Assembly (NCBI GenBank): GCA_020629115.1
Contig: JAHDDY010000022.1
Location: 2,719 to 47,905, forward strand
Length of the DNA: 45,187 nt
Direction: 5' to 3'
From: Paracoccaceae bacterium
Lineage (GTDB): Bacteria; Pseudomonadota; Alphaproteobacteria; Rhodobacterales; Rhodobacteraceae
Below the pieces are notes generated by a model. It saw nothing but the letters and a program-made list of their open reading frames with translations. It was not told where the DNA came from and searched no databases. A program made the position numbers and the translations under genes. Shown here in pieces: positions 5,517-16,038 of the stretch (its first letter is position 1; the number at the start of each line of letters is the position of its first letter).

Positions 5517-6557
5517 ATGCGTCCGGTTCGCGTGCTCGTCGTCGACGATTCCCCGACCATGTGCGCCATGATCGACCGCGCGCTGCGTTCCGACCCGGAG
5601 ATCGAGGTCCTGGGCTGCGTCCACGACGCCTACGAGGCGCGCGCGGCGATCAAGCGGCTCTCGCCCGACGTCATCACGCTCGATATCGAGATGCCGCGCA
5701 TGAGCGGGCTGGAATTCCTCGACAAGATCATGACGCTGCGCCCCATGCCCGTCATCATGGTGTCGAGCCTGGCCCGGAAGGGCGGGCGGGCGGCGGTGCA
5801 GGCGCTCACGCGCGGGGCCTTCGAATGCGTGGGCAAGCCCACGGGCGGCGACTTCGCACGGGCCTTCGCGGACCTGCCGGCCATCGTCAAGGCCGCCGGC
5901 GCGAGCGGTGGATACGCCCCCGGTGCCCGGAACGCCGTCGAGCAGGGTGTCGAGCAGGCGGCCTTCAGCCCCAACCGCAACGTGGTCGCCATCGGGGCCT
6001 CGACGGGCGGCGTCGATGCCATCGCGAAGCTGCTGGCGCGCTTTCCGGAAAACTGCCCGCCGACCCTCGTCACCCAGCACATGCCCTCGGGCTTCACGGC
6101 CAGCTTCGCCAACCGCCTTAACGGACGGTGCCGCCCGACGGTGTCCGAAGCGGTGGACGGCGCGCCGCTCAAGGCCGGGCACGTCTATATCGCGCCGGGC
6201 GGAACGCGGCATCTGGAGGTCGCGGGCCGGGCGTCCCTGCGCTGCTCGCTTCGGGAGGGGACGCTCGTCTCCGGCCATCGCCCGTCCGTCGATACGCTCT
6301 TCTCCTCGGTGGCCCGTCTCGGCGGGCGCGGGGTCGGCGTGATCCTGACCGGCATGGGGGCGGACGGGGCGGCGGGACTGGCAGAGATCCGCGCCGCCGG
6401 AGGCCGCACCCTCGGCCAGGACGAGGCGACGAGCATCGTCTACGGCATGCCCCGCGCCGCCCACGAGAAGGGCGCGGTCGAGCGCCAGCTTCCCTTGCCG
6501 CACATCGCCGACGCCATCCTCGACCTGTGCAACGCCGACCGGAGGGCCGTCGCATGA
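5517..6557 (+). CDS. cheB: Chemotaxis protein-glutamate methylesterase/deamidase CheB
   Basis: A 346-residue CheB that demethylates and deamidates chemoreceptors when phosphorylated by CheA. The receiver domain (about 1-120) has Asp10/Asp11, the phosphorylation site Asp56 (LDIEMP) and Lys107. After a linker the esterase domain shows the catalytic triad Ser162 (GASTGG), His188 (TQHMPSGF) and Asp283 (TGMGADG). It is the first gene of the che operon. Its TGA overlaps the ATG of cheD, implying coupled translation of two receptor-modifying enzymes. The preceding 244 bases hold the likely promoter. Confidence 0.96.
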
Positions 6558-7090
6558 GCGCCGCCCTCGCAAAGGACGCCGGATCGAGGATCGTGCACGT
6601 CCCGCAAGGGACGTTCGACGTGTCGGACGACGCGTCCGTGCTGATGATGACGACCCTGGGTTCGTGCGTCGCCACCGCCCTGCACGACCCCGTCGCGAAG
6701 GTCGGGGGGATGAACCACTTCCTGCTTCCCGGCGGCGCGGGGGGCAGCACGAACCACGGTATCAACGCCATGGAGCTGCTGATCAACGCGCTGCTGAAGC
6801 GCGGGGCGAGACGCGGTCGCCTTCAGGCCAAGCTGTTCGGCGGGGCGCAGGTGGTGCGGGGCCTGTCGAACGTGGGCGAGGGCAATGCCTCCTTCGCCCG
6901 GCGGTTCCTCGCCGACGAGGGCATCGCCTGCATCGGCGAGAGCCTGGGCGGCACGCAGGGACGGCGCGTCCGCTACTGGCCCGCCACGGGCCGGGCGCAG
7001 CAGATGCTGCTCGCCGGGATTCCCGCCTCCGCGCCCTCGCCGCCGCCGACCCCCGCCCCGTCCGCCGGAAACGATGTGGAGCTGTTCTGA
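6554..7090 (+). CDS. cheD: Chemoreceptor glutamine deamidase CheD
   Basis: A 178-residue CheD, which deamidates specific glutamines in chemoreceptors. The catalytic cysteine lies in [11 protein letters not shown] and the histidine in [10 protein letters not shown]; both fit the family. A Pro/Ala-rich tail leads to the C-terminal sequence NDVELF. The same DVELF occurs at the C-terminus of the small protein at 11676-12026 in this operon. The start overlaps the cheB stop by four bases. Confidence 0.95.
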
Positions 7091-7092
7091 CC

Positions 7093-7365
7093 ATGCCCGA
7101 CCCCCTGACCCTCGATCCCGAACTCAGCCTCGGCGGTGCGGCGGACCTCGCCGCGGCCTTGGCAGCGCGGCGCGGGAACGACCTCACCCTCGACGCCTCG
7201 GCGGTCGAGCATCTGAGCGCGCCCGCCGCGCAGGTGCTCCTGGCCGCCCGCCGCGCCTGGGACGGCGACGGCAAGTCCCTCGCCATCGCCGATCCGTCCG
7301 ATCCGTTCCGAACCTGCCTCGACCTTCTGGGCCTGGGCGACACCCTCCTGGAGGAGCAGTCATGA
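7093..7365 (+). CDS. STAS-domain protein of the che operon
   Basis: A 90-residue single STAS domain, related to anti-sigma factor antagonists. The segment LTLDASAVEHLSAPAAQVLLAA contains the DxSxxxxLSxPAxQ pattern with a serine where antagonists are phosphorylated. Similar small STAS proteins are found in other alphaproteobacterial chemotaxis operons, where their role is poorly known. It starts two bases after cheD. Its stop overlaps the ATG of the following cheY, so it is probably made in step with that response regulator. Confidence 0.8.
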   Translation: MPDPLTLDPELSLGGAADLAAALAARRGNDLTLDASAVEHLSAPAAQVLLAARRAWDGDGKSLAIADPSDPFRTCLDLLGLGDTLLEEQS

Positions 7366-7727
7366 GCCTCAAGATCCTCGCCGTCGACGATTCGCGCACC
7401 ATGCGCATCCTCATCCAGTCCGCCCTGTCCGAAGCCGGGTTCGAGGTGGACGTCGCTGAGGACGGCGTGCATGGGCTGGAGGTGCTGGGCGGCATCGCGC
7501 CCGACGTCATCATCACCGACATCAACATGCCCCGCATGGACGGCTTCGGCTTCATCGAGGCCGTGCGCGCGACCGAGAAGAACCGAACGACCCCCATCCT
7601 GACCCTGACCACCGAAAGCGCCCCCGAGATGAAGGCGCGGGCGCGCAATGCGGGCGCGACGGGCTGGATCGTCAAGCCCTTCGACAAGGAGAAGCTCGTC
7701 TCCGTCATCCGCCGCGTCGCCGCCTGA
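7362..7727 (+). CDS. cheY: Chemotaxis response regulator CheY (first copy)
   Basis: A 121-residue stand-alone receiver domain. It has Asp9/Asp10, the phospho-acceptor Asp53 (ITDINMPRMDG), a Thr switch residue in TLTTESAP and the conserved Lys in WIVKPFDKEK. Phosphorylated by CheA, it either binds the flagellar motor switch or drains phosphate; the two CheY proteins of this operon may split these tasks. The start overlaps the STAS gene stop. It is more canonical than the second CheY (11290-11679). Confidence 0.93.
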   Translation: MSLKILAVDDSRTMRILIQSALSEAGFEVDVAEDGVHGLEVLGGIAPDVIITDINMPRMDGFGFIEAVRATEKNRTTPILTLTTESAPEMKARARNAGATGWIVKPFDKEKLVSVIRRVAA

Positions 7728-7740
7728 GGAGGACCGCCCC

Positions 7741-9867
7741 ATGAGCATGGACGATCTGCGCGTCACCTTCTTCCAGGAATGCGAGGAGCTGCTCGAAGCC
7801 CTCGAATTCGGCCTGCTGGAGATCAACGAGGGCGGCGGCGACGACGATACGCTGAACGCCGTCTTCCGGGCCGTGCACTCGATCAAGGGCGGGGCCGGGG
7901 CCTTCGGCCTCGACGATCTGGTGCGCTTCGCCCACAAGTTCGAGACGACGCTGGACGAGGTGCGCGCCGGGCGGCTGGAGAATGCGCCGGCGGTGCTCAA
8001 GACTTTCCTGCGCTCGTCCGACATCCTCGCCGATCTGGTACGCGCGGCGCAAGAGGGGACGGAGGTCCCGCCCGGGCCGGTGGAGGAGGTGCTGGCCGAG
8101 CTGGAGACCCATCTGCCGACCGAGGAAGCCGCCGAGGATGAGGAGGAGGACGACTTCCAACCCCTCGGCCTCGATTTCGACTTCGATCTCGGCGGGGACG
8201 ACGACGATGCCGGCCCGCCCGTTTCCGGGCCGGACGTCTGGACCATCGCCTTCAAGCCGAGGCGCACGCTCTACGAGCGCGGGAACGAGACGGTCCTCCT
8301 GTTCCGGGCGCTGGCCGAGCTGGGCGAGTTGTCGGTGACCTGCGACGAGAGCGCCCTGCCCGCCCTCGACGCGATGGAACCGGGGGAGGCGTATCTGGGC
8401 TGGACCGCGCGCTTGGCCACCGAGGCCGAGGAAGGCGATATCCGCGAGATCTTCGAGTTCGTGGAGGACGATTGCGACCTGACCATCGCCCTCGCCGCCC
8501 CGGAAGCGGAAGCGGAGCCGGAACCCACCCCGGAGCCGGTCGAGATCGAGCCGCTCGCCGCGCTGGAGGCCGAAGCACCGCCCGCCGAACCCGAACCCGC
8601 CGCCGAGCCGGAACCGGCCCGGGCCGAGGCCGTCGCGCCGAAGGCCAAGGCCGAGGCACCCAAGGCCACCGTGCGCGTCGAACTGGACCGGGTCGAGCGG
8701 CTCATCAATCTCGTGGGCGAGCTGGTCATCAACCAGTCCGTCCTGTCGCAGCAGGTCTTCGACGCGGGCATCGCCGCGAATTCGGAGGTCGCGACCACCA
8801 TCGACGTGTTCAAGCAGCTCACCCGCGACATCCAGGAAGGCGTGATGGCCATCCGCGCGCAGCCGGTGAAGTCATTGTTCCAGCGCATGTCGCGCATCGT
8901 GCGCGAGGCGTCGGGCGCGACCGGCAAGACCGTGCGCCTCGTCACCGAGGGCGAGAACACGGAGGTCGACAAGACGGTCGTCGAGCGCCTGTCCGATCCG
9001 CTGACTCACATGATCCGCAACTCCGTCGATCACGGGCTGGAAAGCCCCGAGAAGCGCGAGGCTGCCGGCAAGCCCGCCGAGGGCATCGTGCATCTGAGCG
9101 CGCAGCACCGCTCGGGCCGGGTGGTCATCGAGATCACCGACGACGGCGCGGGCATCGACCGCCCCCGCGTGCGCCAGATCGCGGTCGAGAAGGGCCTCAT
9201 CGCCGAGGACGCCGTCCTGAGCGACAGCGAGATCGACAACCTCCTGTTCATGCCCGGCTTCTCCACCGCGTCCGAGGTCTCGAACCTCTCGGGCCGGGGC
9301 GTCGGGATGGACGTGGTCAAGCGCGCGATCCAGTCCCTGGGCGGGCGCATCTCCATCGTCTCGGAGCCGGGGAAAGGCTCGACCTTCACCATCAGCCTGC
9401 CGCTCACCCTCGCCGTGCTCGACGGTATCGTGGTGGAGATCGGCGAGGAGACGACCGTCATCCCGCTCACCAACGTCGTGGAGACCCTCAAGCCCACCGC
9501 CGAGCAGCTCCATTCGATGGGCAACGGCGCACGGGTCGTGCGCGTGCGGGGCGACTTCGTGCCGGTGGTCGACGTGGGCTACGAGCTGGGCTTCCGCGAC
9601 AAGGCGGAGGGTCTGGACGACAAGGTCGTCCTCCTGACCGAATCGGAGGGCGGGTCGCGCAGCGCCCTCGTGATCGACGCGATCCAGGATCAGCGGCAGG
9701 TCGTCATCAAGGGCCTCCAGGACAATTACGGCACCGTGCACGGCGTGGCGGCGGCGACCATCCTCGGCGACGGCCGCATCGCGCTCATCCTCGACGTCGA
9801 TTCCCTCGTCGCCTCCGCGACGAAGACGAAGACCGATCCCGATCATTCCCTCGCGATGGCAGGATAA
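7741..9867 (+). CDS. cheA: Chemotaxis histidine kinase CheA
   Basis: A 708-residue CheA. The HPt domain (about 1-105) carries the phosphorylated His46 in AVHSIKGGAGAF. A long acidic Glu/Asp-rich and Pro/Glu/Ala-rich linker surrounds a small middle domain (about 160-255) that probably docks CheY/CheB. The dimerisation segment is at LDRVERLINLVGELVINQ. The ATPase domain has the N box HMIRNSVDHGLE, G1 ITDDGAGID and G2 GRGVGMDVV. A C-terminal CheW-like P5 domain couples to receptors. It lies 13 bases after cheY and just before cheW. Confidence 0.96.
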   Translation: MSMDDLRVTFFQECEELLEALEFGLLEINEGGGDDDTLNAVFRAVHSIKGGAGAFGLDDLVRFAHKFETTLDEVRAGRLENAPAVLKTFLRSSDILADLVRAAQEGTEVPPGPVEEVLAELETHLPTEEAAEDEEEDDFQPLGLDFDFDLGGDDDDAGPPVSGPDVWTIAFKPRRTLYERGNETVLLFRALAELGELSVTCDESALPALDAMEPGEAYLGWTARLATEAEEGDIREIFEFVEDDCDLTIALAAPEAEAEPEPTPEPVEIEPLAALEAEAPPAEPEPAAEPEPARAEAVAPKAKAEAPKATVRVELDRVERLINLVGELVINQSVLSQQVFDAGIAANSEVATTIDVFKQLTRDIQEGVMAIRAQPVKSLFQRMSRIVREASGATGKTVRLVTEGENTEVDKTVVERLSDPLTHMIRNSVDHGLESPEKREAAGKPAEGIVHLSAQHRSGRVVIEITDDGAGIDRPRVRQIAVEKGLIAEDAVLSDSEIDNLLFMPGFSTASEVSNLSGRGVGMDVVKRAIQSLGGRISIVSEPGKGSTFTISLPLTLAVLDGIVVEIGEETTVIPLTNVVETLKPTAEQLHSMGNGARVVRVRGDFVPVVDVGYELGFRDKAEGLDDKVVLLTESEGGSRSALVIDAIQDQRQVVIKGLQDNYGTVHGVAAATILGDGRIALILDVDSLVASATKTKTDPDHSLAMAG

Positions 9868-9873
9868 GAACAG

Positions 9874-10362
9874 ATGCCCGATACCGAACGGAAGACCTAT
9901 TCCCCGACCCTCGAATTCATCACCTTCCATATCGGCGAGGAGGAATACTGCGTCGATATCATGGCGGTGCGGGAGATCCGCGGCTGGACCCGGGCGACCG
10001 CCCTGCCCCACGCGCCGCACTACGTCAGCGGGGTCATCAACCTGCGCGGCACGGTCCTGCCCATCATCGACCTGGCCGCGCGCCTCGGCGTCGGCGCGAC
10101 CGAGCCGACCTCGCGCCACGTCATCATCGTGCTGCAGGTCGAGGGGCAGGTGGTGGGCCTGCTGGCCGACGCGGTCTCGGACATCATGACGGTCAAGGCC
10201 GAGGAGATGCATGCCACGCCGAACGTGGATTCGGAGACGGCCAAGCTCTTCGTGAAGGGCATCCTCGCCGTCGACGAGCGCATGATCCGGCAGATCGACG
10301 TGGCCAAGGTCTTTCCCGCGCAGCAGCAGCAGGACGCGGCCCCGCCCGCCGCCGCGGCCTGA
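9874..10362 (+). CDS. cheW: Chemotaxis coupling protein CheW
   Basis: A 162-residue CheW scaffold linking CheA to chemoreceptors. The segments LEFITFHIGEEEYCVDI, VREIRGW and SGVINLRGTVLPIIDLAARL are characteristic of the family, including the receptor-contact Arg in NLRG. The C-terminus ends in a short Gln/Ala-rich tail. It follows the cheA stop by six bases and precedes cheR by three. Confidence 0.95.
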   Translation: MPDTERKTYSPTLEFITFHIGEEEYCVDIMAVREIRGWTRATALPHAPHYVSGVINLRGTVLPIIDLAARLGVGATEPTSRHVIIVLQVEGQVVGLLADAVSDIMTVKAEEMHATPNVDSETAKLFVKGILAVDERMIRQIDVAKVFPAQQQQDAAPPAAAA

Positions 10363-10365
10363 GCG

Positions 10366-11235
10366 ATGGGCCTCGCACGGGAGAAGCCCGTCCCCGCCGC
10401 CATCGCGCAGGACACGCCGCTGTCGCCGGAGAACTTCCGGCGCATCGCCCGGGTGCTCCACGAGGACGCGGGCATCGCCATGCCCGACGCCAAGCGCCAG
10501 CTCGCGCATTCGCGCCTGTCCAAGCGCCTGCGCCGCCTCGGGATGGACGACTTCACCGCCTATTGCGATCTCGTGGAGAGCAAGGGCGGCGCGGAGGAGC
10601 GCGGGCACATGCTCGCCGCCCTGACGACGAACGTCACCCGCTTCTTCCGCGAACCGCATCATTTCGAGCTTCTGGAGAAATCCGTCCTGCCGCCCCTGCT
10701 GGACAGGGCCAGGCGGGGCGGGCGGGTGCGGCTGTGGTCGGCGGGATGCTCGACGGGGGAGGAGCCGTACTCGCTGGCGCTCACGATCCTGTCGATGCTG
10801 CCGAACGCCGCCGATCTCGACATCCGCATCCTCGCCACGGATATCGACCCCAATGTGCTCGCCACCGCCCGCCGGGGCCTCTACACCGCCCGCAGCGCCG
10901 AGACGATCCCCGAACGGAGCCGCAAGCGGTACGTCGAGAACACGGACGATCCCGGCCAGGTCCGGATGGGCGACACCGTGCGCAGGCTCGTCACCCTCAA
11001 CGGCCTGAACCTCGTGCGCCGATGGCCGATGAAGGGGCCGTTCGACGTCATCTTCTGCCGCAACGTCGTGATCTACTTCGACGAGGCCACCCAACGCGCG
11101 CTGTGGCAGGAATTCGCCCGCGTCCTCGCCCCCGACGGCTGGCTGCTCATCGGCCATTCGGAGCGGGTCTTCGGCCCGGCGGCCCAGACGTTGCGAACCG
11201 CCGGAATCACCGCCTACCGCAAGACGGTCCGGTAG
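10366..11235 (+). CDS. cheR: Chemotaxis protein methyltransferase CheR
   Basis: A 289-residue SAM-dependent methyltransferase that methylates receptor glutamates. The N-terminal helical domain (about 15-80) is followed by the catalytic domain with TTNVTRFFREPHHF, the SAM-binding loop WSAGCSTGEEPYSLAL, ATDIDPNVL and the late motif VIFCRNVVIYFD. All invariant CheR features are present. The chemoreceptor at 13828-16038 ends in DWSDF, the kind of pentapeptide that CheR docks on. Confidence 0.96.
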   Translation: MGLAREKPVPAAIAQDTPLSPENFRRIARVLHEDAGIAMPDAKRQLAHSRLSKRLRRLGMDDFTAYCDLVESKGGAEERGHMLAALTTNVTRFFREPHHFELLEKSVLPPLLDRARRGGRVRLWSAGCSTGEEPYSLALTILSMLPNAADLDIRILATDIDPNVLATARRGLYTARSAETIPERSRKRYVENTDDPGQVRMGDTVRRLVTLNGLNLVRRWPMKGPFDVIFCRNVVIYFDEATQRALWQEFARVLAPDGWLLIGHSERVFGPAAQTLRTAGITAYRKTVR

Positions 11236-11289: not shown

Positions 11290-11679
11290 ATGTCGCTCAA
11301 GGAGAAACTCCAGATCATGGTCGTCGACGACATGTCCGTCAGCCGCGGACTGCTCGTGAACGGCCTCGAAGGCCTCGGCATCAAGCGCGTCGTCTACGAG
11401 AACGACGGCGCGGCGGCGCTGAAATCGCTCACCGCCAGCCCGGCGCATATCGTCATTTCCGACTACAACATGCCCAACATGGACGGTCTGGAGCTGCTCA
11501 GGAACCTGCGCGCGAACAAGGCGACGCAGAAGGTCGGCTTCATCCTCGTCACCGGCAGCGAGGACAGGCAGGTTCTCGTGAACGGCAAGAAGTTCGGCAT
11601 GAACAACTACCTGAAGAAGCCCTTCGACGGCGCGGGCCTTCGCAAGTGCATCGAGGCGGTGGTCGGGCCGATCGGATGA
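11290..11679 (+). CDS. cheY: Chemotaxis response regulator CheY (second copy)
   Basis: A 129-residue receiver domain with Asp13/Asp14, the phospho-acceptor Asp58 (ISDYNMPNMDG), Thr in LVTGSEDRQ and Lys in YLKKPFDG. It lies 54 bases after cheR. Its TGA overlaps the ATG of the DxxxQ protein downstream, so the two are probably translated together. In alphaproteobacteria with two CheY proteins one drives the motor and the other often acts as a phosphate sink. Which is which cannot be told from this sequence. Confidence 0.92.
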   Translation: MSLKEKLQIMVVDDMSVSRGLLVNGLEGLGIKRVVYENDGAAALKSLTASPAHIVISDYNMPNMDGLELLRNLRANKATQKVGFILVTGSEDRQVLVNGKKFGMNNYLKKPFDGAGLRKCIEAVVGPIG

Positions 11680-12026
11680 CGCGCGGCGCGGCATTGCCCG
11701 ACCTGCTGTCCGCCGTGGCGGCGGAGCTGACCCGGCTGCACGAGCGCGCCCTCGACCTGCAATCCGCCACCGGGGCGCTCGCGGAGGGCGGCGCGGCGCG
11801 GGCGGTGGAGGCGCTTCAGGATCTCGACCGCCTGACGCAGGATCTGTCCGGTCTCTCCGCCTACGCGGCCGCCCTGTCCGCGCAGGGCGAGGCGGCATGG
11901 CGCGTGGACGAGGCGGCGGCGCTGGAGGCGGTGACGCTCGCCTCCCTCGCGCGGCGTCTGTCCCCGGGATCGGCATGTGCAGGCGACGACTGCGGCGGGG
12001 ACGTGGAGCTGTTCGGGCCGACCTGA
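11676..12026 (+). CDS. Small DxxxQ protein closing the che operon, CheT/CheZ-like candidate
   Basis: A 116-residue mostly helical protein. Its ATG overlaps the stop of the second cheY. Residues 48-60 (QDLDRLTQDLSGL) contain Asp51-x-x-x-Gln55, the arrangement used by CheZ to dephosphorylate CheY. CheT of Sinorhizobium meliloti is a protein of similar size and operon position with a DxxxQ helix, described as acting on a CheY. Overall similarity to either is not measurable here. After a Gly/Cys-containing linker the C-terminus reads GDVELFGPT, sharing DVELF with CheD of the same operon. A CheY phosphatase or adaptor role is inferred, not shown. Confidence 0.65.
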   Translation: MTRGAALPDLLSAVAAELTRLHERALDLQSATGALAEGGAARAVEALQDLDRLTQDLSGLSAYAAALSAQGEAAWRVDEAAALEAVTLASLARRLSPGSACAGDDCGGDVELFGPT

Positions 12027-12114: not shown

Positions 12115-13629
12115 ATGCCCTCTCTCGCCGACCGCTGGACCCAGCTTTCCGCCGCCCGCCGCGTCCTGCTCGTCGGGGCCGTCCTGCTGGCGGGGGGCCT
12201 CGGCGTCCTCGCATCCGTCATCTCGGGCGGGCCGGCGACGGCGCTCCTCTTCGCCGGACCGGACGAGCGCGGCATGGGCGCGGTCACGGGCCGCCTCGAT
12301 GCCTTGGGCGCCCCCTACGAGATGCGCGAGAACGCCATCCACGTCCCCGCCGACCGGCGGGACGGGCTGCGGCTGGCCCTCGCGGCGGGGGGCCTGCGCG
12401 CGCAGGGGGCGACCGGATACGCGGTTCTGCCCGGTCCCGCCCCCTCCCGCACCGACACGGAACGCGAGCTGGCGCGCACCCTCCTGTCCCTGCCCGATAT
12501 CGGCGAGGCGCGGGTCGGCATCCGTCCCGGCCCCCGCGCGACCGTCGGCCTGACCAGCGCCTCGGGCGCGGATGTCGGCACCGTCACGGCCGGCACCGCC
12601 CGCCGCCTCGTCGCCCTCGCTGTGCCCGGCCTGCCCCCCGGCGCCATCCCCGTCTTCGACGGCGCGCGCCGCATCCCCCTGCCGATGGACAGCGCGAAGC
12701 CGTCCGCCCCCCTCGTCGTCGGCGACGACCGGGCGGGCATCCTCAAGGCCTCCATCGAGCGCCTGCTGCGCGGTCTCGTCGGCAAGGACCGCCTGCGCGT
12801 CAGCGTCGCCGTCGAGACGGTCGGCGAGGCCAGCGCCCGCGAGCGCCGCAGCCTCGACCGGGACAGCCGCGTCCTGCGCCGCACCGAGCGGACGGAGGTC
12901 GCCGAGACGAGCGCCCGGGGCGAGGATGGCGAGGGGGCGAATGCGGGTCTCGACGAGACCAGCACCACCGAACGCTACGACTACACCGAGACGACCGAGA
13001 CCCGCGCCCGCGCCGCCGGATCGGTGCGCCGGATCACCGTCGCCGTGCTGATCGACCACGATCGCGAGACCGCCGCCGACGGGACGGTTTCGCGCAACCC
13101 GCGTCCCGCCGCCGAACTCGCCAAGATCGAGGCGCTGGTCAAGTCGGCCATCGGCTACGACGCGGAACGCCGGGACAGCGTGACCGTCGAGCAGATGTCC
13201 TTCGCCGACGCGGCCGACCCGGATGAGGGCGCGTCGGTCGGGGCGGTATCGTCCGGCGTGCCGGCCCTCGATACCATGCGCCTCGTCCAGGTCGGGACGG
13301 TGGCGGCGGTCGTCCTGATCCTCGGGCTGTTCGTCGTGCGTCCCGTCCTCCTGTCGGGCGCGCGCCCCCTTCCGGCACCCCGGCAGGAGGCGGAGGAGGA
13401 CGCGCCCTTCGGGGAGATGGGCTTCGCCACCGCCGGCATGGACGACCTGCCCGATTTCGGCGGCGACGGCACGATGACCGCGCCCGGCGGCCTCCAGAAC
13501 GGTGGGAACGGCGACGACACCGACCCGCGCGACCGCCTGCGCGATGCCATCGCGGACCGGGCGGACGAATCGGCGGACGTGCTTCGGGGATGGCTCGACA
13601 CGCCCCCCGACCGCCGGCGTGCGGGATGA
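12115..13629 (+). CDS. fliF: Flagellar MS-ring protein FliF
   Basis: A 504-residue FliF, the inner-membrane ring on which the flagellar motor and export gate are built. A first membrane segment lies at about 18-38 (VLLVGAVLLAGGLGVLASV). The ring-building domains follow, with ERELARTLLSLPDIGEARV typical of the family. A charged low-complexity loop (about 270-300) precedes the second membrane segment (about 383-403). The cytoplasmic tail ends in a FliG-binding-like stretch, SADVLRGWLDTPP. It is slightly shorter than many FliF proteins. No fliG or other flagellar structural gene follows; it stands alone between che genes and a chemoreceptor. Confidence 0.92.
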   Translation: MPSLADRWTQLSAARRVLLVGAVLLAGGLGVLASVISGGPATALLFAGPDERGMGAVTGRLDALGAPYEMRENAIHVPADRRDGLRLALAAGGLRAQGATGYAVLPGPAPSRTDTERELARTLLSLPDIGEARVGIRPGPRATVGLTSASGADVGTVTAGTARRLVALAVPGLPPGAIPVFDGARRIPLPMDSAKPSAPLVVGDDRAGILKASIERLLRGLVGKDRLRVSVAVETVGEASARERRSLDRDSRVLRRTERTEVAETSARGEDGEGANAGLDETSTTERYDYTETTETRARAAGSVRRITVAVLIDHDRETAADGTVSRNPRPAAELAKIEALVKSAIGYDAERRDSVTVEQMSFADAADPDEGASVGAVSSGVPALDTMRLVQVGTVAAVVLILGLFVVRPVLLSGARPLPAPRQEAEEDAPFGEMGFATAGMDDLPDFGGDGTMTAPGGLQNGGNGDDTDPRDRLRDAIADRADESADVLRGWLDTPPDRRRAG

Positions 13630-13827
13630 CCGCATCCGGGGCATCCCGTACGGCGGGGCGCGGCGAAGACAACGGTCGGTAGAAATACCGGCTTCCGAGT
13701 ATTTCGTCATTCATGACTAAAGCTGCATTAAGCATTCACAGCCTAAGGTGGATCGGTCTCAACCCCGTTTCACTCGATCCCGGACCCGCCGTTCGTGTCG
13801 ATGACGGACAAACGCAAAGGTGGTTTC

Positions 13828-16038
13828 ATGCTGAACTCGTGGCCGGTATCGCGGCGCATCACTTCGGGATTTCTCGTCCTGTTAGCGCTCATGGTAGCCC
13901 TGTCGGCTTATTCTTTCTTCAGCATGCGGATGCTGGGGGGTGGATACGAGGATTATCGCGCGAAGACGCAGCAGACGACCCAGATCGACGCCCTCATCGA
14001 GAATGTCCTCCAGATGCGTGTCGACGAGGCAGAGTACCATCTGACCGGCTCCGGCGAGACCGCCGAGAAGGTCGAGGCGCGGATCGACCGGATCGCGACC
14101 CGTTCCCAGACGCTGCGCGGCATGGGAATTAGCGAGGAACGGATGGCGGAGATACAGGCCGTCAACACGATGGGGCAGGAATACCTCGCCGGGTTCGAGA
14201 AGCTGCACCGCCTGACCGATGCGGAACACGCGCTCGAAGCGCGCATGGAGACGACGGGCGAGGCGATGGCGGAGGACCTCGCCACGCTCGCGGCCCTGGC
14301 CGTCGAGGACGGAAATATACAGGTCGTGCGCATGGCGGGCACGGCGGAGGAGAAGTTCATCCTCACCCGGCTCCATGTCACACAGTACTTCCTGTCGAGC
14401 GACGACGGCCATATCGAGACAGCACGGCTCGATCTGGCCGAGGTGGCCGAGGCGATGGCCCGGCTGGAACGCGCCGTGACGCCGGCGAACATGCGGACGA
14501 TCATCGAACGGACCATCGCGAACCTCGCCTCCTATACCGATGATCTCGACCGTGCCGACATCAACCTGAGCGCGGCGAAGGATATCCGGATCGGGACGCT
14601 GGACCGCATCGCCCCGCAGATGCAGGCGCGCTTCCAGGCCGTGGCGCAGGACATCAAGGCCCAGCAGGCCGCCCTGGGCGAGAGCGGGGAGGCCATCGTC
14701 ACGCGCTCCACCTGGCTGACGCTTGCCGCGAGCCTCCTCGCCGTGTTCGCCACCATCGGGGTGGCCCTGTTCGTCAGCCGCTGGATCGGCGATCCCCTGC
14801 GCGCCCTGGTCGAGACGACCGGCAAGCTGACCGCCGGGGACACGAGCGCCCCCATCGACGGCACCGAACACGACCACGAGTTCGGACGGCTGGCCCAGGC
14901 GCTGAGTACCCTTCGCGATACCCAGATCGAGCGGCGCGACGTGATCGAGCCGCAGGCCGAGCGCGAGCGCGGCGAGCGCGAACGGGTCGTGGCGGCCCTG
15001 GGCGTGGGCCTGCGCGACCTGTCGTCGGGCAAGCTGACCGCCCGCCTGCACGAGCGGTTCGCCCCCGAATACGAGCAGTTGCGCACCGACTTCAACGAGG
15101 CGATGGAAAAGCTGCAGGACGCGATGCACTCGGTGGTGATGAATGCCGGCAACATCAACAACGCCGCCGGCGAGATCAGCCAGTCGTCGGACGATCTGGC
15201 CCGCCGGACCGAGAACCAGGCCGCGACGCTGGAGGAGACCGCCGCCGCGATGGAGGAGCTGACCGCCAGCGTCAGCTCCACCGCCGACGGGGCCGGCAAG
15301 GCGAACCGCTTCGTCACCGACACGAAGAAGAGCGCCGAGGCGAGCGGCGCGGTGGTGCGCGAGACGGTCGAGGCCATGAGCCGCATCCAGCAATCCTCCG
15401 ACCAGATATCCCAGATCATCGGCGTCATCGACGACATCGCCTTCCAGACCAACCTCCTCGCCCTCAATGCGGGGGTCGAGGCGGCCCGGGCGGGCGAGGC
15501 GGGGCGCGGCTTCGCCGTGGTCGCCTCGGAGGTGCGGGCGCTGGCGCAGCGGTCGTCGGACGCGGCCAAGGAGATCAAGGAACTGATCTCCGACAGTTCG
15601 CAGCACGTCGAGAGCGGGGTCGATCTGGTGAACCGCACCGGCACGGCGCTGGGCGAGATCGTGACGATGGTGGGGACCGTCAGCGACCTCGTCGCCGAGA
15701 TCAGCGCCGCGACCAGCGAGCAGTCGACCGGGCTGGTGGAGATCAACACCTCCGTCAACCAGCTCGATCAGGTCACCCAGCAGAATGCCGCCATGGTGCA
15801 GGAGGCGACCGCCGCGAGCCACGAGCTGACCCGCGACGCGAACGCCCTCACGCAGCTTACCGCACGGTTCTCGATGGATGGCGCCGGCCGCGCCCCGTCG
15901 CCCGCCCCCGTCGCCGCCAACGACAGGACCGCCCCCTCGCCGGTGGCGCGGCCCGAGCGGGGGACCGCTCCGGCCACCCGGGGCGCACTGGCCCTCCAGC
16001 CGGAGCCGGTGGCGGATGACGACTGGTCCGACTTCTGA
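13828..16038 (+). CDS. Methyl-accepting chemotaxis protein
   Basis: A chemoreceptor of 736 residues. The start at 13828 is preferred because AAAGGTGG lies just upstream; earlier in-frame starts at 13795 (GTG) and 13801 lack a ribosome site. The first membrane segment is at about 14-34, followed by a long helical periplasmic sensor domain. A second membrane segment lies near residue 300, with HAMP directly after it and a second HAMP-like segment ([16 protein letters not shown]). The signalling hairpin tip has [20 protein letters not shown]. After a Pro/Ala-rich linker the protein ends DDDWSDF, an NWETF-like CheR/CheB docking pentapeptide. Ligand unknown. It has its own upstream region of about 200 bases. 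Confidence 0.93.

Follow-up and report, generated by a model that had tools for sequence, protein, structure and literature searches.

A divergent CheT homologue at the end of a Paracoccaceae chemotaxis operon and a C-terminal tail shared with CheD

Results

The chemotaxis operon and its last gene

The window, a stretch of 45,187 nucleotides from a Paracoccaceae bacterium, carries a chemotaxis operon in the order cheB-cheD-cheS-cheY1-cheA-cheW-cheR-cheY2, followed by a gene for a small CheT-like protein and then, on the same strand, by fliF. The features that matter here are the following.

5517–6557, + strand: cheB
6554–7090, + strand: cheD; the C-terminus of the protein is GNDVELF
7073–7087, + strand: C-terminal tail DVELF of CheD, common to the CheT-like protein
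7093–7365, + strand: gene occupying the position of cheS; in Ruegeria and Phaeobacter its relatives carry the annotation STAS domain-containing
7362–7727, + strand: cheY1
7741–9867, + strand: cheA (homologues annotated CheA)
9874–10362, + strand: cheW (homologues annotated CheW)
10366–11235, + strand: cheR
11290–11679, + strand: cheY2; best PDB sequence match is CheY2 of S. meliloti (1p6q)
11676–11679, + strand: ATGA, four bases shared by the end of cheY2 and the start of the CheT-like gene (translational coupling, from sequence and conserved spacing)
11676–12026, + strand: CheT-like gene, 116 amino acids, ATG start, TGA stop at 12024–12026
11817–11819, + strand: codon of Gln48, three residues ahead of Asp51 (alignment)
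11826–11828, + strand: codon of Asp51 of the DxxxQ motif (invariant in alignment A4)
11838–11840, + strand: codon of Gln55 of the DxxxQ motif (invariant in alignment A4)
12000–12014, + strand: tail DVELF of the CheT-like protein (residues 109–113), then GPT (12015–12023) and the stop
12115–13629, + strand: fliF
13795–16038, + strand: methyl-accepting chemotaxis protein with the C-terminus DWSDF (receptor-type pentapeptide)

The first-pass annotation had taken the 116-residue reading frame as the last gene of the operon, and both its limits and its place stand: fliF begins 88 bases further on in the same direction, which makes it the last che gene and does not imply that the transcript ends there. 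The gene at the cheS place found no match in NCBIfam at E ≤ 1e-5. In the AlphaFold2 model of the CheT-like protein (mean pLDDT 80.8), a two-helix hairpin (residues 7–36 and 41–70) is followed by short helices at 79–84 and 89–95 and by a tail of lower confidence. Asp51 and Gln55 both lie inside helix 41–70, in agreement with the helix foreseen for them. The receptor gene downstream of fliF ends in WSDF (16024–16035), a pentapeptide of the receptor type, so that three proteins of the cluster have, or nearly have, a C-terminal motif ending in F.

Homologues, gene order and the invariant residues

A search with the window protein matched 17 of the 149 genomes of the family, its own included; one match (L017) was an unrelated reading frame and was removed ahead of building alignment A1. 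Within the 16 rows of A1, Q48, D51 and Q55 alone are invariant. The A1 profile matched 61 of the 149 family genomes at E ≤ 0.01, the two weakest matches (7.8e-4 and 0.009) being doubtful, and the only other genome sampled from the window's genus (G054) gave no match. Weak matches at four further loci (L053–L055 and L058) look like chance and consist of long unrelated frames. Regions of up to 19 kb were read for 39 of the 60 non-window family genomes and for genome G399; the remaining 21, with weaker matches, were left out. The CheT-like gene stands directly behind cheY2 and on the same strand in 36 of these 40 regions. Of the 37 regions with a same-strand cheY2, 36 have the CheT-like start codon no more than 60 nt from where cheY2 stops, and in 33 there is one at −20 to +5 nt, which, together with the ATGA overlap in the window, bears out the translational coupling to the second cheY suggested from this DNA alone.

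The same operon, with a homologue, is present in Ruegeria and Phaeobacter, hence the label Rhodobacterales-type used below. It had been expected that such a protein would be labelled hypothetical, and this holds in both annotated relatives inspected: TM1040_RS01440 of Ruegeria sp. TM1040 and GAL_RS19225 of Phaeobacter gallaeciensis are each annotated 'hypothetical protein' and lie behind cheR and a second response regulator. The two were found with the profile of alignment A4, described below (82 and 85 bits), whereas tblastn with the window protein against plasmid records returned nothing; a single-sequence search is thus too weak for this family. Four weak profile matches of 20–39 bits near che genes were also seen on Acetobacter and Sphingomonadales plasmids (L221:9619–9945, L218:9557–9814, L219:11503–11763 and L225:10405–10644); only the Acetobacter protein has a tail (VIDFF), and the three scanned with NCBIfam gave no match.

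In a second order, that of genome G515 and inferred from gene order to be Caulobacterales, the CheT model matched 16 of 150 genomes at 18 places. At 12 of the 18 places cheD is the gene immediately ahead of the CheT-like gene, and QxxDxxxQ is present in 16 of the 18 proteins, the other two having His for the first Gln.

In the alignment of 41 Rhodobacterales-type sequences, the window included, the only invariant residues are Q48, D51 and Q55, even though 40 of the 41 are just 16–41% identical to the window protein; that these three should be the sole invariant positions across such divergent sequences argues that the DxxxQ motif is not a chance occurrence. When 11 Rhizobiaceae and 18 second-order rows were added (alignment A4, 70 rows), Asp51 and Gln55 remained invariant in 70/70. 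The first-pass annotation had named loss of this pair among orthologues as the outcome that would speak against its proposal, and that outcome did not occur. The position of Gln48 is Gln in 41/41 Rhodobacterales-type rows, and outside that group two copies (L071, L074) have His there. The two second-order proteins with His in place of the Gln three before Asp are extra CheT-like copies (L210:9199–9561 and L211:9551–9904); around both there is a CheY-like gene, and no other che operon gene was found in the stretch.

Relation to CheT and CheU

CheT of S. meliloti was described in 2024 (reference in PMC12654446), so the enzyme class itself is not new. According to that review (PMC12654446), it has a DXXXQ motif, resembles CheZ in its AlphaFold model, removes phosphate from one of the two CheYs and is found in a complex with CheR. 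The sole NCBIfam match of the window protein is CheT (NF047973), with E 1.1e-4 and a score of 22.2 bits where the cut-off is 200; at this score it counts as a homologue of the CheT equivalog and is not filed as that equivalog. CheT of S. meliloti itself (L116, 9969–10343, behind cheD) reaches 227 bits on the same model, above the cut-off. At E ≤ 0.01 the model matches 55 of the 70 rows of A4; since the 11 Rhizobiaceae and 18 second-order rows (up to 29) are circular, the independent matches amount to at least 26 of the 41 Rhodobacterales-type rows. None of ten hand-reversed family proteins matched. Searched directly, the model found only 4 of 385 genomes of the class at E ≤ 0.01, the window's among them, 0/17 in one order and, at E ≤ 0.1, 0/5 plasmid-borne proteins found by the A4 profile (Ruegeria, Phaeobacter and three weaker ones). 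It is clear that the NCBIfam model misses many homologues.

Named rhizobial loci were fetched with CheY2 of S. meliloti (1p6q), and the best 80 of 387 were used; they belong to Sinorhizobium, Ensifer, Rhizobium and kin, some being titled only 'Rhizobiales bacterium'. In 80/80 of them a QxxDxxxQ reading frame follows cheY2 at a distance of no more than 1.8 kb, a count that is no test of conservation because the frames were chosen by that pattern. Comparison of the 41 Rhodobacterales-type rows with 18 Rhizobiaceae CheT rows, the S. meliloti protein among them, by hhalign gave 98.7% with E 2e-16 over 116 columns, that is, over the full length, with Asp placed on Asp and Gln on Gln. In the model of S. 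meliloti CheT, helices span residues 14–40, 47–74, 85–90 and 95–102, with a four-residue turn at 114–117 and a tail of low confidence; the four main helices are common to the two models and come in the same order.

As judged from the sequence and profile comparisons, the window protein is a divergent homologue of S. meliloti CheT. The two share the two-helix hairpin, the LQxxDxxxQ motif, a tail ending in F, the company of two cheY genes and a gene place behind cheY2 or cheD and ahead of fliF. They differ in sequence, the identity being 25% (22–27% to the 11 Rhizobiaceae rows), in the three extra residues past the tail of the window protein, and in gene order, which is cheY2-cheD-cheT-fliF in S. 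meliloti and cheY2-cheT-fliF, with no cheD between, in the window.

A published table (PMC2529317) gives the order cheYII-cheD-cheU-cheYIII-cheE for Phenylobacterium and Caulobacter. The CheT-like gene occupies the place behind cheD in 12 of the 18 second-order loci, where that table puts cheU, most of them with the same motif and tail, and CheU, judged by its gene place, is therefore probably CheT.

Comparison with CheZ and other phosphatases

The first-pass annotation had remarked on the lack of an annotated CheZ. Indeed, the CheZ profile (PF04344) matched none of the 149 family genomes, while the E. coli control matches, and CheZ, CheX (PF13690) and CheC (PF04509) gave no match in the window's own assembly, which is 98.8% complete; all three profiles matched among 14 control genomes, CheX and CheC in 4 of them each. 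Several rhizobia and Caulobacter crescentus have likewise been described as lacking CheZ (PMC8429497, PMC10579534). The window protein matched no Pfam family at E ≤ 0.01, CheZ, CheX and CheC included; a match to 'Harpin' (E 0.018), which falls short of the cut-off, was rejected. With the CheC/CheX/FliY phosphatases it would have a role in common, and the window's genome has neither CheX nor CheC matches.

The protein had been proposed to be of the CheT or CheZ kind. The CheT half of this proposal is upheld by the profile match, the profile-profile match, the predicted helices and the operon place, whereas by profile the protein is no CheZ, hhalign of the CheT-like profile against five CheZ proteins giving 0.2%; homology of CheT to CheZ was rejected on that ground. 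The profile comparison that had been suggested as a check accordingly came out for CheT and against CheZ, and without a Pfam match to CheX. By its sequence, then, the gene belongs with CheT, as a divergent homologue scoring under the NCBIfam cut-off, and is not a CheZ. In CheZ the motif AxxFQ directly precedes DxxxQ (PMC7750401); the window protein has ALQDL ahead of D51, which does not fit it. The likeness to CheZ is one of layout, with DxxxQ in a hairpin, a linker and a C-terminal peptide. Against this, profile similarity is lacking, the window protein has about half the length of CheZ, CheT has LQxxD where E. coli CheZ has AQDFQD, and the E. coli CheZ tail reads VDDLLDSLGF. From the motif Asp to the C-terminus there are 46–71 residues in CheT (median 65, 70 rows) and 72, 77 and 84 in CheZ, the latter taken from three of the five CheZ proteins as the motif pattern failed on the other two.

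Structure searches gave generic helical hairpins among the rows listed. The best Foldseek E-value was 1.5 for the window model (best 50 of 78 rows) and 0.81 for the S. meliloti CheT model (best 50 of 175 rows), the matches listed being WXG100, kinase-hairpin, de novo and other helical proteins; VIA-align gave the same generic helical classes among the 50 entries listed for each model. That CheZ is missing from the listed rows is uninformative, since it is missing for S. meliloti CheT as well. A PDB sequence search with the single window protein found nothing, and one with A4 matched coiled coils of keratin and spike proteins, which were rejected as matches of composition.

A tail common to CheT and CheD

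The length between D51 and L95 hardly varies (40–47 residues, sd 1.0), and 5–26 residues come after L95, so that the C-terminus appears to consist of a linker and a short tail. The consensus of that tail is about G[DE][VIF][DE][LF]F on both CheT and CheD, often G[DE][VIFA][DE][LF]F in CheT. For counting, a tail was defined by a last residue F, W or Y and a penultimate residue from LIVMFWYA. By this rule the tail occurs in 33 of 40 CheT and 29 of 32 CheD proteins of the Rhodobacterales-type loci (window excluded), compared with 0/246 in seven other Che classes (four of which end in F), 0/20 receptors (18 of the 20 end in F, as WxxF) and 20 of 1003 frames of at least 200 amino acids with no assigned class. 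The Rhizobiaceae loci gave 80/80 for CheT and 80/80 for CheD, with 0/552 for the seven other Che classes and 0/79 for FliF; 23 of 78 matches to MCPs pass this loose rule, yet just 2 of the 78 end in F. In the second-order loci, 13 of 18 CheT and all 14 CheD proteins have the tail and other Che proteins have none (0/123), which brings the seven other classes to 0/921 over the three groups of loci.

In 12 named plasmid records, CheD with the tail was found in Ruegeria, Phaeobacter, Sphingobium, Sphingomonas, Novosphingobium, Acetobacter, Azospirillum sp. B510 and Vibrio sp. THAF191c; CheD of A. brasilense has ELF followed by ERR. Among the plasmid records, those of Burkholderia glumae, Cupriavidus metallidurans and Rhizobium leguminosarum pRlX5 hold a CheD with no tail. 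The tail need not be at the free end: the window CheT reads DVELF-GPT and that of Ruegeria ELF-EL, and CheT of Phaeobacter has no tail. Such extra residues count against a strict need for a free C-terminus. No C-terminal tail of CheD or CheT is named in the titles and abstracts among the matches listed, prior publication still being possible, and the parts seen of the review PMC12654446 do not mention one.

MCP-like proteins with the same motif and tail

The Vibrio locus also encodes a 389-residue MCP-like protein (L224:7620–8789) with a match to PF00015, the motif LQFTDIIVQ and the C-terminus EGEVELF. Its last 142 residues matched 73 of 398 Pseudomonadota genomes at E ≤ 1e-4, at 74 places, 62 of which align up to the last residue of the query. 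The best 30 of the 74 (L228–L257) have both [LM]QFxDxxxQ and an end G[DEGT][IV]ELF in 30/30, a count that leans toward both features because the query holds both and the best matches were read. Most of them nevertheless show an identity of only 25–33%. Their genes adjoin a cheW, cheB, cheR or cheY-like gene in 28 of 30 loci, a hydrophobic stretch resembling a membrane segment is present in 4 of 30, the motif Asp lies 68–81 residues from the C-terminus, and 29 of the 30 tails fit Qxx[MIL][DE]EGx[IV]ELF. Unlike CheT, these proteins possess a signalling domain of the MCP type (PF00015 for the Vibrio protein) and open frames of 331–599 residues.

Comparison by hhalign of CheT (A4) with the C-terminal parts of the MCP-like proteins (alignment A5) gave 92.8%, with Asp and Gln placed on Asp and Gln and tail on tail. 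Against sub-profiles A5 gave 74% (41 Rhodobacterales-type rows) and 0.5% (18 Rhizobiaceae rows). Among the controls, 30 column shuffles gave at most 0.4%, reversed A5 0.7% and six natural decoys at most 1.9%; reversed A4 against A4 gave 27%. The pair of DxxxQ and tail recurs in CheT and in the MCP-like proteins, and this recurrence is not proof of homology. The MCP-like DxxxQ proteins are possible candidates for receptor-array phosphatases.

Discussion

In CheZ, the Asp and Gln of DxxxQ enter the active site of CheY~P, where the Gln positions the attacking water. The divergent CheT homologue of the window probably ends the chemotaxis signal in a similar manner, by accelerating the loss of phosphate from one of the two CheYs, a reading for which the conserved motif, the homology to CheT and the operon place speak. 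Helices 7–36 and 41–70 form a predicted hairpin, which probably pairs into a four-helix bundle as in CheZ; Asp51 and Gln55 of the second helix would reach into the active site of CheY~P, with the Gln presumably holding the attacking water. A linker of variable length would then lead to the conserved tail DVELF, which we infer to dock a partner, most likely CheY, as does the C-terminal peptide of CheZ; CheD, having the same tail, would bind the same partner. CheZ of E. coli is built in this way, as a hairpin dimerizing into a four-helix bundle, a linker at 169–199 and a C-terminal helix at 199–214, its CheY-binding region being C-terminal (PMC7750401).

Alternatively, the protein may be an adaptor that binds CheR, its tail mimicking the receptor pentapeptide WxxF, filling the pentapeptide site of CheR and tuning methylation, with phosphatase activity minor or lost. 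S. meliloti CheT is reported to form a complex with CheR (PMC12654446), and the majority of CheT and CheD proteins have a final F and, at −3, a hydrophobic residue, comparable with the WxxF ends of the receptors. An adaptor, however, would not need Asp51 and Gln55, which never vary in A4; the tails mostly carry a hydrophobic residue at −1, a position taken by D or E in most receptors; the Rhizobiaceae MCP matches rarely end in F, although CheT and CheD keep their tails throughout the same loci; and residues past the tail occur, as in the window CheT. We consider the adaptor unlikely. Termination of the signal by CheY1 acting as a phosphate sink with CheS, or by CheA acting as a phosphatase, with the CheT-like protein a minor modulator, appears quite unlikely too. 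The operon does contain cheY1 and a gene where cheS would stand, such a sink has been reported for S. meliloti (PMC8429497), and a paper titled for a bifunctional kinase-phosphatase (PMC2924250) mentions Rhodobacter sphaeroides in its abstract; the position of the CheT-like gene directly behind cheY2 in 36 of 40 regions points the other way, while staying compatible with a sink working alongside. A small phosphotransfer hairpin of the HPt or DHp type is very improbable, as A4 has no invariant or nearly invariant His and its invariant residues are Asp and Gln, despite histidine-kinase hairpins (CpxA, GacS) among the generic structure matches.

Returning to a DxxxQ phosphatase that acts on CheY, the tail is proposed to be the part that docks CheY. 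The start of FliM binds CheY at the same surface as the CheZ tail. The E. coli CheZ tail is SQDQVDDLLDSLGF, the N-terminus of E. coli FliM is MGDSILSQAEIDALL and the tail of the Vibrio MCP-like protein is SQESIEEGEVELF, the start of which resembles the CheZ and FliM peptides. The simplest reading of these sequences would be that CheT and the MCP-like proteins follow the plan of CheZ, with a DxxxQ helix and a C-terminal CheY-docking peptide, and that CheD carries the same peptide. More tentatively, CheT, CheD and the MCP-like DxxxQ proteins might all use one C-terminal docking peptide, about [DE][VIF][DE][LF]F, to bind CheY~P, by which CheD would become a feedback sensor.

The homologues in 61 of 149 family genomes and 16 of 150 genomes of the second order provide a concrete candidate enzyme that is annotated 'hypothetical protein' in the relatives inspected. 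The shared tail is an outcome that a specialist may not expect; it is drawn from counts over sequences, and it offers a simple handle, as one short peptide may explain both the targeting of CheT and the regulation of CheD. In Bacillus, the feedback of CheY~P on CheD works through CheC. If the shared docking peptide is real, Alphaproteobacteria without CheZ and CheC would bring CheY~P to both a phosphatase (CheT) and the receptor deamidase (CheD), and CheD itself would be the CheY~P feedback sensor, a role for which Bacillus needs CheC.
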